This document shows, piece after piece, positions 23,711-31,973 of a stretch of 46,298 nucleotides of DNA. The stretch's first letter is position 1. Every line of letters starts with the position of its first letter. The notes below the pieces were generated by a model. That model was not told where the DNA came from, made no database searches, and saw only the letters and a program-made list of their open reading frames with translations. The stretch is from IMG/VR virus record IMGVR_UViG_3300048687_000010, positions 1 through 46,298 of that record, one strand, 5' to 3'. A program made the position numbers and the translations under genes. The stretch comes from a virus.

Positions 23711-23733
23711 CCCTTCGGGGCTGGGGTTTTTTT
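23705..23733 (+). terminator. Rho-independent terminator with UUCG loop
   Basis: CCCTAGCCC pairs with GGGCTGGGG around a TTCG tetraloop, followed by seven T (23727-23733). It overlaps the stop codon of the preceding small gene. This ends the first early transcription unit. Confidence 0.85.
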
Positions 23734-23754
23734 CGTCCGATCCCCACCTCCTTC

Positions 23755-24075
23755 CTGTGCGCCTCCCATCAGCCCTACCTGTGCGCTAGTGCTACAATCT
23801 AATAGTAGAAAAAGACCACGTGTTAGCTGTGCGCCTCATACTGCTAGTAACTAGTATTAGTATCAGCAGAACAAGACCATGTCCTACCTGTGCGCCTATT
23901 ACTGATGTGATCAGATTCACATAGTAGTAGAGAAAGACCACATGTTGACTGTGCGCCTTCCTCTGATTGGAGACACTGCCGTGTGACCAACGCGCACTCG
24001 AGCGCGCATCCTCCCACTCACTAATAGTACAAGACCACATCATAGCTGTGCGCCTAATCTCTCATATCAGAGATT
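23755..24075. repeat. Direct-repeat (iteron-like) array with hairpin spacers
   Basis: Four 24-base repeats with shared AGACCA at the start and CTGTGCGCCT at the end lie at 23813-23836, 23874-23897, 23935-23958 and 24032-24055; the first three start exactly 61 bases apart. Extra CTGTGCG ends are at 23755 and 23779. Each repeat is preceded by a TAGTAG/TAATAGTA-type run, and spacers contain inverted repeats, for example AATCTCT/AGAGATT at 24056-24075. No gene is seen here. The layout resembles origin iterons or a set of related small structured elements. Confidence 0.7.
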
Positions 24076-24225
24076 AATACTCACACACTGCTAGCTCTCA
24101 CATAATAGACTCCCTCCCCCTCCCTCCCCTCTCTCACTCTCATACGACCATACCGAGCAGGTATCCAAGGGATTGGACGGTTGAGGCGTCAAATAGTTGG
24201 GAAATAGAAGAAGAAGATAATGATC

Positions 24226-24263
24226 TTTTTTTTTTTTTGTTTTTTTTTATATATTATTTTCTA
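24226..24263. other. AT-rich tract beside the repeat array
   Basis: This is almost pure T for 33 bases, then ATATATTATTTT. It is the most AT-rich part of the window and lies just after the iteron-like array, as a DNA-unwinding element of an origin would. A purine run (GAAATAGAAGAAGAAGATAA) precedes it; the pair could also act as a weak terminator. Confidence 0.6.
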
Positions 24264-24299
24264 CTACTTTTCTCCAACTCGTCATCCCTTTGACATCCC

Positions 24300-24826: not shown

Positions 24827-25100
24827 TCACTACATCAGCCCATCACGGCACCCATCACGGCATGGGACGAAGTAGATTCTAGTACTAGCACTAGTACAAA
24901 CGCCGGCCGGCTCGGTTTCCGAAGTCGGACCGAATCGGTCGGCGTTCGCAAGTCGTTGCAAACAGGGCACTTAGCCCCCCTTGCACCAGGTAGCCGACCT
25001 ATGGTAAGCTGGTATCCGCGGCGAGCGTTGGCCGCCTCTACTACTACCAATAGTAGCAGAGAGTAGTAACAGAGCTGGTATTCCGAGAGGACAGTCCACA
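24827..25100 (+). other. Structured noncoding stretch upstream of small genes
   Basis: No gene is seen. The stretch is dense in inverted repeats: GTACTAG-CA-CTAGTAC at 24882-24897, AACGCCG/CGGCGTT at 24899-24946 with an inner CGGT/ACCG pair, TTGCAAACAGGG/CCCCCCTTGCA near 24956-24986, and CTACTA/TAGTAG near 25040-25056. A tandem CATCACGGCA pair begins at 24841. It may hold a structured leader or small RNA, or a promoter that I cannot place with confidence. Confidence 0.5.
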
Positions 25101-28293: not shown

Positions 28294-28320
28294 TTAACTA
28301 GACAAGAGAATAGAATACAT

Positions 28321-28346
28321 GGGACCACTCAATAGTGGGTGGTCCC
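28321..28346 (+). terminator. Hairpin after the SprT-SNF2 gene
   Basis: GGGACCAC pairs with GTGGTCCC; the inner CCACT/AGTGG can pair instead, so two folds compete. No T-run follows. It may limit read-through or stabilise the upstream mRNA. Confidence 0.5.
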
Positions 28347-28368
28347 GAGATACAGATAGGAATACGAG

Positions 28369-28713
28369 ATGAAATTCGACTACACGAATCCGGGCTACTG
28401 GCCGACACAAGAGGAAGTGCTAGAAGTGAACGCGCGCTCAATCATTTCAGATTGCCGCGCACTGATTTCTGGCACTCTAATTCCTCGCTCATTCGGTAAC
28501 ATCAGTAGCGTATGGTCGGAATACACACCTGATACAGTGAAGATGCGTAAGACTGATGTAGTGGACCGGATGCGCGCTCAGTCAGTGAAACTAACAGAGA
28601 AGAGAACTAGTCGAGCGCGCGTGATGAAACTGACTCGCATGTTGGAGCAGAATGGCATGGATTCTATCACTGCAACGAACAAGGCGTTAGACCTACTGAA
28701 AGGGACAAAGTGA
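28369..28713 (+). CDS. Hypothetical basic helical protein
   Basis: The protein has 114 residues. 'MKFDYTNPGYWPTQEEVLEV' starts it, and the rest is helical and rich in Arg and Lys ('KMRKTDVVDRMRAQ', 'KRTSRARVMKLTRMLEQNG'). A DNA-binding role is possible from charge only. An AGGA site lies upstream of ATG 28369. The stop shares one base with the next start (TGATG). Confidence 0.7.
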   Translation: MKFDYTNPGYWPTQEEVLEVNARSIISDCRALISGTLIPRSFGNISSVWSEYTPDTVKMRKTDVVDRMRAQSVKLTEKRTSRARVMKLTRMLEQNGMDSITATNKALDLLKGTK

Positions 28714-30490: not shown

Positions 30491-30808
30491 ATGACTGACA
30501 ATAAGAGAGACGACAGGATTCTGACACAGCGGGAACTCATTGCCGAACTCATGGGAATGATTGGCAACATGCAGGAGACACAGCGTCATCTCGTAGACTG
30601 CATGACCATGACCAATAAGCGTGTGGATACGCTCCACGCGCGCTTGGACGAGATGGATTTCCAGTTGAAGGGCACACCTCTCAATGATGTTGAGGGACTT
30701 CCCACCATGACGGTGAATCTCTCCACCATGCGGGAGTTCCTCGACACTCATTCGCATGGACGTACTCAGACTCTCTCACGTAAGGCTCGGCAACGCGACG
30801 ACAGCTAA
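30491..30808 (+). CDS. Coiled-coil hypothetical protein
   Basis: The protein has 105 residues from ATG 30491, chosen because GAGAGG stands eight to ten bases upstream. The segment 'LTQRELIAELMGMIGNMQET' and the following 'MTMTNKRVDTLHARLDEMDF' form a long coiled coil. The C-terminus is basic. It may be a scaffold or adaptor in the early region, but no family is recognised. Confidence 0.65.
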   Translation: MTDNKRDDRILTQRELIAELMGMIGNMQETQRHLVDCMTMTNKRVDTLHARLDEMDFQLKGTPLNDVEGLPTMTVNLSTMREFLDTHSHGRTQTLSRKARQRDDS

Positions 30809-30822
30809 TAGGAGACTACAGT

Positions 30823-30984
30823 ATGACCGCACTTCAGTTCCTCACCTCGCCGGAATTCGGTTGCTGCAACACGTCAGAGCTGATGGCACTGGCGCGCACC
30901 AACAAGGAGGACGTGGCGAAGCTCAAGGAATACGCCAAGGCCGAGATGGAGCGCAAGGAGATTCCCATCACGGAGAACAAGTAA
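30823..30984 (+). CDS. Small helical protein (53 aa)
   Basis: The protein has 53 residues: 'MTALQFLTSPEFGCCNTSEL', then a Lys/Glu/Ala helix 'VAKLKEYAKAEMERKEIP'. The Cys-Cys pair is near the N-terminus. An AGGAGA ribosome site precedes ATG 30823. It is the last gene before the structured noncoding segment at 30995. No family is recognised. Confidence 0.65.
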   Translation: MTALQFLTSPEFGCCNTSELMALARTNKEDVAKLKEYAKAEMERKEIPITENK

Positions 30985-30994
30985 TTCATCGAGG

Positions 30995-31206
30995 TTAGCC
31001 GCGTCCCTTACGCTGGCTAATGTGGGCACCATCCTGAGCCTGCGGTAAAATCAGGATTCAGTTTCCTAGTTCTGAATAAAGACTAGGGTTCATTCCACTA
31101 ATGGAATGGTTTAGTTAAGCCTGCTCTCTACTACCACTAGGTGTTCTAGTGGCGCCTAGAGTGACCTAGGTGATGTGAAAGATAGTAGAGAGTAGACTTA
31201 ACTGAA
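30995..31206 (+). ncRNA. Candidate structured RNA with five successive stems
   Basis: Stems: TTAGCC+GCG/CGC+GGCTAA (30995-31020); ATCCTGA/TCAGGAT (31031-31057); CCTAGT/ACTAGG (31065-31087); CATTCCA/TGGAATG (31091-31108); then a branched element from 31110 to 31206. The branched element has an outer 10-bp stem TTTAGTTAAG/CTTAACTGAA, an inner 10-bp stem CTCTCTACTA/TAGTAGAGAG, and two hairpins inside, CCACTAG/CTAGTGG and CCTAG/CTAGG. It has no open reading frame. It could be a small RNA, a riboswitch-like leader for the 31236 gene or a protein-binding RNA. Confidence 0.65.
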
Positions 31207-31235
31207 CGCTGCTAACTGATAGATAGGAGTAACTG

Positions 31236-31973
31236 ATGATGACTGAAGGTAAGCCACTGACACCACTATCGGATGGAGTAGTTCTCATCGTGGGAACTAA
31301 GGCTAGCAACTTTGAATACTCCCTGCGCACTCATCCACGCATCATCATGTGGGAGAGTCAGCAGGAGCACTGGACCAACAAGGATATGCCCTCTAACACT
31401 AGGGCTGTATTCATGACCAGATTCATTGGTCACAGCTCATTCGAGAAGATTGTGGCTGAGGCTAGAAAGAAGAGAATTACAATCTTCAATCCGACCGGCA
31501 CAGGAACCATCATCCGTCAGGTCAAGGAGTTGCTATCAATCACTAAAGTCCCTGCTGTGCGCCCCGAACCAATCACTACTGAAACGAAAGTAAAGGAGAC
31601 TACTGTGGGAACTAAGAGCACACTATACCCGTTGATTCCATTCATGGACTTCACACTCACGAATGCTGAGAACGCGCGGAGACTCATCATCAAGGCAGCG
31701 GAACTGAACATCAACACTACACTGGATTCACTCAACCAGTATGTGTATGTCCAGCGCAAGAAGGCTGGCATCCCTTCAGTCGTATCTCGTAGGAAACCTG
31801 AACCGGTAGTGAAGAAGCAGGTAGTCGAGTCAGTAGATGTGAGCATCGAGATTTTGGACAATCTCATCAAGGGATTACAGGACATGCGTGCTTTCTTCGT
31901 GGCGACGGTGAATGAGAACAACGAATTGAGAGCGCGTGTGGACAAGTTCAAGAAAGCGATGGAGGGCATCTAA
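31236..31973 (+). CDS. DUF2325-like protein with coiled-coil end
   Basis: The protein has 245 residues. Residues 15-95 follow the DUF2325 pattern: 'VVLIVGTKASNFEYSL', 'RAVFMTRFIGHSSFEKIV', 'RKKRITIFNPTGTGTI', a Rossmann-like domain of unknown role. A Pro/Thr linker follows, then a helical middle and a C-terminal coiled coil ('ENNELRARVDKFKKAM'). It directly follows the structured RNA. Its stop overlaps the next start by one base. Confidence 0.65.
   Translation: MMTEGKPLTPLSDGVVLIVGTKASNFEYSLRTHPRIIMWESQQEHWTNKDMPSNTRAVFMTRFIGHSSFEKIVAEARKKRITIFNPTGTGTIIRQVKELLSITKVPAVRPEPITTETKVKETTVGTKSTLYPLIPFMDFTLTNAENARRLIIKAAELNINTTLDSLNQYVYVQRKKAGIPSVVSRRKPEPVVKKQVVESVDVSIEILDNLIKGLQDMRAFFVATVNENNELRARVDKFKKAMEGI

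Follow-up and report, generated by a model that had tools for sequence, protein, structure and literature searches.

The noncoding segment at positions 30995 to 31206 of a single contig of 46,298 bases from an uncultured phage (the whole contig is called the window here) is a real, evolutionarily maintained folded RNA that consists of two separate modules, W and T. Module W, a hairpin followed by two proposed pseudoknots, is almost certainly a genuine structured RNA. It is wcaG-like in one part, the 3' pseudoknot, and is not a member of the wcaG family. We favor, with a probability of about 40%, the reading that the segment is a noncoding stretch within a polycistronic phage mRNA, and that W acts in cis on the mRNA of the DUF2325-like gene.

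Results

Gene context of the segment

The right half of the window is an operon-like series of + strand genes, in the order SNF2-like helicase with a SprT domain, tRNA-Leu, several small genes, 53-aa gene and structured segment. These are followed by the DUF2325-like gene, which is part of the replication module, and by genes for a PD-(D/E)XK nuclease, an AAA_24 ATPase, a weakly SSB-like protein, a UDG-DNA polymerase A fusion and a DUF3987 protein. The name "DUF2325-like", given in the first-pass annotation, holds weakly: the window protein has no Pfam match, but DUF2325 was found in 5 of 7 aligned relatives (best E 0.0073). The segment was also said to contain no reading frame, and indeed no + strand ORF of at least 30 aa lies between 30999 and 31235. 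No near relative of the window was found among 50,697 phage records, and a DNA-level search of these records with 30700-31700 gave no match. Relatives were fetched via the downstream gene and via the polymerase, and their intergenic sequence was then compared with that of the window; L-numbers (L002, L003 etc.) are labels of fetched loci or contigs. The coordinates of the features are collected in Table 1.

Table 1. Features of the structured segment, its flanking genes and the equivalent slot of relatives.
Feature	Locus	Position	Strand	Remarks
53-aa gene	window	30823-30984	+	immediately upstream of the structured segment
Module W	window	30989-31088	+	hairpin 1 and two abutting pseudoknots (proposed H-type); homologue at L002 3471-3570
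Hairpin 1	window	30995-31020	+	UUAGCC GCGU CCCUU ACGC U GGCUAA; 10 bp, one bulge
Pseudoknot a (proposed)	window	31022-31057	+	GUGGGC 31022-31027 with GCCUGC 31038-31043; stem AUCCUGA 31031-31037/UCAGGAU 31051-31057; loop GGUAAAA
Pseudoknot b, wcaG-type	window	31058-31087	+	UCAG 31058-31061/CUGA 31072-31075; loop UUU 31062-31064; stem CCUAGU 31065-31070/ACUAGG 31082-31087; loop AUAAAG
Hairpin 3	window	31090-31109	+	8 bp, between the modules; no counterpart in L002; only a weak terminator-like match
Module T, three-way junction	window	31110-31206	+	outer stem 31110-31119/31197-31206; inner stem 31121-31133/31183-31195; hairpins 31134-31152 and 31153-31172; purine-rich strand AUGUGAAAGA 31173-31182
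Shine-Dalgarno-like sequence of the DUF2325-like gene	window	31225-31229	+	AGGAG
DUF2325-like gene	window	31236-31973	+	245 aa; constant downstream neighbour of the slot
tRNA in slot	L146	4896-4976		
tRNA in slot	L153	4902-4976		
Pistol ribozyme in equivalent slot	L007	2766-2842		43.9 bits; Rfam cut-off 34.5

Folding of the segment

The folding energy of 30985-31235 is -104.1 kcal/mol, against a mean of -69.3 for shuffled sequences (z = -8.06), and none of 200 shuffles was as low. This excess lies mostly in the branched part (31089-31206, z = -8.75; 30989-31088, z = -2.78). When the whole record was scanned in 436 sliding intervals of 212 nt, those starting at 31059 and 30995 ranked 1st and 4th by z, and the latter had the lowest energy of all. 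The segment is extreme yet not alone, since the intervals at 28303, 34875 and 24805 are also low.

Other structured stretches were seen in the window. At 28320-28348 a GGGACCACUCAAUAGUGGGUGGUCCC hairpin stands directly ahead of the gene at 28369 (surrounding 226 nt, z = -5.4), and the noncoding stretch 24827-25100 is strongly structured (z = -4.6), with a long near-perfect CGCCGGCCGGCUCGG... hairpin. Between leftward and rightward genes, noncoding 23711-24299 carries four to five copies of a repeat of ~21-40 nt (AGACCAYRTNNTANCTGTGCGCCT) at a spacing of 61-97 nt, most with a hairpin behind; from this arrangement it is possibly an origin or promoter array.

All of the stems that the first-pass annotation had named are present (hairpins at 30995-31020, 31031-31057, 31065-31087 and 31090-31109; branched element at 31110-31206). 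In the branched element the 10-bp outer stem and the two enclosed hairpins, each of 7 bp, were as described, although the inner stem has 13 bp and not 10. The stems do not simply follow one another as had been supposed, however: at least one pseudoknot, and probably two, had been missed. The proposal of a new phage RNA fared similarly; a functional RNA is supported by compensatory changes in W, but neither a single 212-nt RNA nor complete novelty was borne out. Because W is shared with L002 only and T with L003 and L151 only, that is, with different relatives, the segment is, as far as these data show, not one continuous 212-nt RNA; in the window the two modules are adjacent. No Rfam family attains its cut-off in the segment.

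Conservation and covariation of module W

W is retained in L002, where it aligns without a gap and in the same place. It is followed there by 72 nt up to the gene, which are not like the 147 nt found at this position in the window. The DUF2325-like protein of L002 is 80% identical to that of the window; W has the same downstream gene in both, and the upstream gene is different. The two copies of W differ at 23 of 100 nt, 17 of these at paired positions. Eight pairs show double compensatory changes (four in hairpin 1, one in the middle stem and three in the last stem, that of pseudoknot b), one a single compatible change (U-A/U-G), and no pair is broken. In 200,000 random placements of 23 substitutions, eight double compensatory changes were never obtained (maximum 6), and slid structures gave at most two. 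The loops, in contrast with the stems, are nearly invariant: CCCUUAC (which includes the hairpin 1 loop CCCUU), GGGCACCAUCCU, GCCUGCGGUAAAAU and UUCUGAAUAAA are identical. The RNA is assigned to the + strand because the U-A/U-G and U-G/C-G changes pair on that strand only.

Pseudoknot b, first noticed by eye and then recovered with a strict descriptor derived from wcaG, very probably forms. Pseudoknot a probably forms as well, with somewhat less assurance as to its topology. Its GUGGGC/GCCUGC helix is seen as an alternative in the minimum-energy fold of L002, and the linker differs at one base only, where a U-to-C change at 31023 converts U-G into C-G so that the pair is kept. The pseudoknot-forming helices show no double compensation between the two members of W. 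Some other pairings were considered. The CCC loop of hairpin 1 could pair with the GGG of the linker; neither strand ever varies, and this pairing, which competes with pseudoknot a, is kept as an alternative. A GAGG/CCUU pairing was discarded, as the third loop has no room and the pairing is lost in L002; a UCAGUU/AACUGA switch near the start codon was dropped, being absent from L002.

Five pattern scans of viral contigs with the conserved loops gave L002 alone as a further member among the matches listed; in one loop-pattern scan the listed matches were mostly a motif from prophages of cultured bacteria, apparently coding. A covariance model built from the window and L002 (R1), run on 69 loci retrieved via the DNA polymerase gene, detected W in the L002 contig alone. 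Its match in L534 (18.9 bits) was judged to be chance, and its matches in cyanophage loci are partly circular, those loci having been fetched by the UCAG/CUGA pattern.

Relation of module W to wcaG RNA

The wcaG RNA (RF01761) is a candidate cis-regulatory RNA of marine T4-like cyanophages (PMC2864571). In a permissive cmscan it was the best family in the window, aligning end to end at 30990-31101 with 18.9 bits (E 0.29 for all families over 401 nt; E 0.008 when wcaG only was searched over the whole record), and W of L002 scored 18.4 bits. These scores are far from the gathering score of 42 and from the 83-94 bits of genuine cyanophage copies. W resembles wcaG in its three-part layout, in its tandem pseudoknots, in its place in a phage genome and, above all, in the 3' pseudoknot unit (X-UUU-stem-U-X'-NNAAAR-stem'), whose geometry (X4-UUU-stem6-U-X4'-NNAAAR-stem6') is matched exactly in both the window and L002. 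This strict geometry was found in these two, in cyanophage wcaG RNAs and in loci that the pattern itself had retrieved; the rest of the ~5 Mb searched had no instance of it, nor had 5 block-shuffled copies. The listed matches of a pseudoknot-pattern scan of genome contigs look like chance.

In other respects W differs from wcaG. The 5' pseudoknot unit is absent, since the CCCUU loop of hairpin 1 runs directly into the stem with no UUU/AAA unit, and the middle element is itself a proposed pseudoknot. The GUGGYG strands that follow each hairpin in wcaG are missing: GUGGGCACC after hairpin 1 is merely similar, and GGUUC/AGCUC stands after pseudoknot b. The phage group and the neighbouring genes are also different, with no terminator behind W, and the next gene is DUF2325-like where wcaG lies in possible 5' UTRs of cyanophage exopolysaccharide or high-light genes. 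The cyanophage variants L331, L351 and L354 have a hairpin - linker - hairpin - pseudoknot layout too. Descent of W and wcaG from a common RNA may be entertained, at somewhat less than even odds.

Two further observations concern the wcaG pseudoknot itself. Close behind the cyanophage wcaG RNAs in L131, L132, L303, L322 and L339 there is a T-rich hairpin resembling an intrinsic terminator and then a TATAAT-like sequence; L130 and L133 have a tRNA no more than ~30 nt downstream. With a terminator-like hairpin or tRNA so near, wcaG as a 3' end or small RNA fits as well as a 5' leader. In unrelated phages (L320:13389-13430; L286:406-447; L319:2880-2838, - strand) a lone wcaG-type pseudoknot stands directly before a Shine-Dalgarno sequence, and its last helix extends into AAGGAG/AAGGAAU. 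To judge from this position, it looks like a translational control element.

Module T and the intergenic slot

Module T, without W, is present in L003 and L151, a short way past the stop codon of the gene related to the 53-aa gene. A core of CC[hairpin]GG-CGCC[hairpin]GGUG-(N0-4)-GAAARGA-like strand within a long stem is common to the window, L003 and L151; only these three have it, and it matches no Rfam family. A covariance model of T (R2) was made from L003 and L151 only, because in the MAFFT alignment of T (A4) the window's stems are out of place. When run over 1.04 Mb of relatives, R2 ranked the window copy first, on the + strand (26.4 bits, E 0.0004; runner-up 14.4 bits, E 1.6). About half of this score comes from the long stem alone, as the - strand gives 13.9 bits. 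A genome-level search with a faster first pass failed to detect the window copy. From these sequence comparisons, homology of T among the three is likely, though less firm than that of W. T is like three-way-junction RNAs in general in having a long closing stem around two hairpins and a purine-rich junction strand.

Structured noncoding segments also come after the relatives of the 53-aa gene in L003, L004, L151, L152 and others. Since relatives carry a tRNA, a Pistol ribozyme or other folds (L004, L141/L145, L152) there, this phage group has a hot spot for RNA elements between its small genes and the DUF2325-like gene. In relatives without RNA in the slot the gap between the genes is as short as 6-22 nt, and so the genes are consistent with one operon. 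Several occupants were seen besides those in Table 1. L007 has a further long structured stretch after the Pistol ribozyme. L141:3665-3720 and L145:2318-2375 share a covarying hairpin (CGAAC..GCCUAC..GUAAC..GUAG..GGUUGGGCG), a further unlisted RNA element. A complex segment behind the 53-aa gene's relative in L152 (L152:4331-4451) is probably another pseudoknotted RNA, to judge by the complementarity between its hairpin loop CCCUCG and a distant CGAGGG.

Discussion

In the reading that we prefer, the segment would be a noncoding stretch within a polycistronic mRNA, presumably transcribed as one, that bears two independently inherited + strand modules. W would fold compactly, into a hairpin and then two abutting H-type pseudoknots. 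Pseudoknot b, built as in wcaG from a 4-bp helix, a UUU loop, a 6-bp helix, a single U and an NNAAAR loop, should form a short triple-helix stack as the stable core. As a leader or intercistronic element W may govern stability, processing or translation of the DUF2325-like part of the mRNA, and T, closed by its very stable stem, may be a spacer, processing or protection element beside the ribosome-binding site. Counted for action in cis are the folding z-score, the compensation in L002, the unchanged loops, the + strand G-U changes, the wcaG geometry and the constant downstream gene. W is nevertheless dispensable for the DUF2325-like gene, because most relatives of that gene lack it. Conservation in W is aptamer-like, but the stretches between W and the gene in the window and L002 are unlike and hold no conserved terminator and no anti-Shine-Dalgarno helix, hence no recognisable expression platform. 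The absence of conserved sequence from W to the ribosome-binding site speaks against a classical riboswitch equipped with such a platform. It also keeps alive the main rival reading, in which W, alone or together with T, is cut from the operon transcript as a small RNA of the phage, in the way phage tRNAs are, and acts in trans on a target such as a host RNA or a defence protein. The slot does accept RNA genes that leave the transcript (tRNAs in L146 and L153, Pistol in L007), its rapid turnover among relatives resembles accessory cargo, the loops of W are more conserved than the stems, and RNase III might cut at the long stem of T. However, there is no promoter above chance and no convincing terminator, copies of W number only two among the matches listed, and no target suggests itself; we hold a small RNA to be doubtful.

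The end-to-end Rfam alignment, the pseudoknot geometry and the layout shared with L331, L351 and L354 might also mean that W is a true, divergent wcaG RNA which functions as in cyanophages. This is improbable, as the score is far under the gathering score, the first UUU-loop pseudoknot and the GUGGYG signature are missing, and the context is not that of a cyanophage, with no exopolysaccharide or high-light gene. Still less probable is a new self-cleaving ribozyme. Pistol (RF02679, PMC4604425) is, like W, a compact pseudoknotted RNA, it exceeds its cut-off in the equivalent slot of L007, and the loops of W are invariant; yet the window has neither sequence nor structural resemblance to Pistol and no match to any Rfam ribozyme, and its pseudoknots abut rather than nest and contain no recognisable active-site core. 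That the palindromes act as DNA, in recombination, packaging or replication, with an incidental RNA fold, is the reading to which we give least credence. The long inverted repeats of T and the turnover between relatives would suit it, but the G-U compatible changes would break pairing of the other strand or of cruciform DNA, and R2 prefers the + strand of T to the - strand.

On a broader and speculative view, which we consider rather unlikely, the two copies of W may be the founding pair of a new tandem-pseudoknot class whose UUU/AAA block is a reusable one, present also in wcaG and in the leaders of L319 and L320, and the slot may be where this phage group swaps RNA devices (tRNA, ribozyme, pseudoknot RNA, three-way junctions). 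The wcaG RNA has been an orphan candidate riboswitch since 2010, found almost exclusively in marine cyanophages. A wcaG-type pseudoknot outside cyanophages, in another gene context, allows a comparison in which the functional core, the UUU/AAA pseudoknot, can be told apart from what is peculiar to cyanophages. In addition, a slot occupied in different relatives by tRNAs, a Pistol ribozyme or pseudoknotted RNAs would be a natural setting in which to learn why phages put small structured RNAs inside operons.
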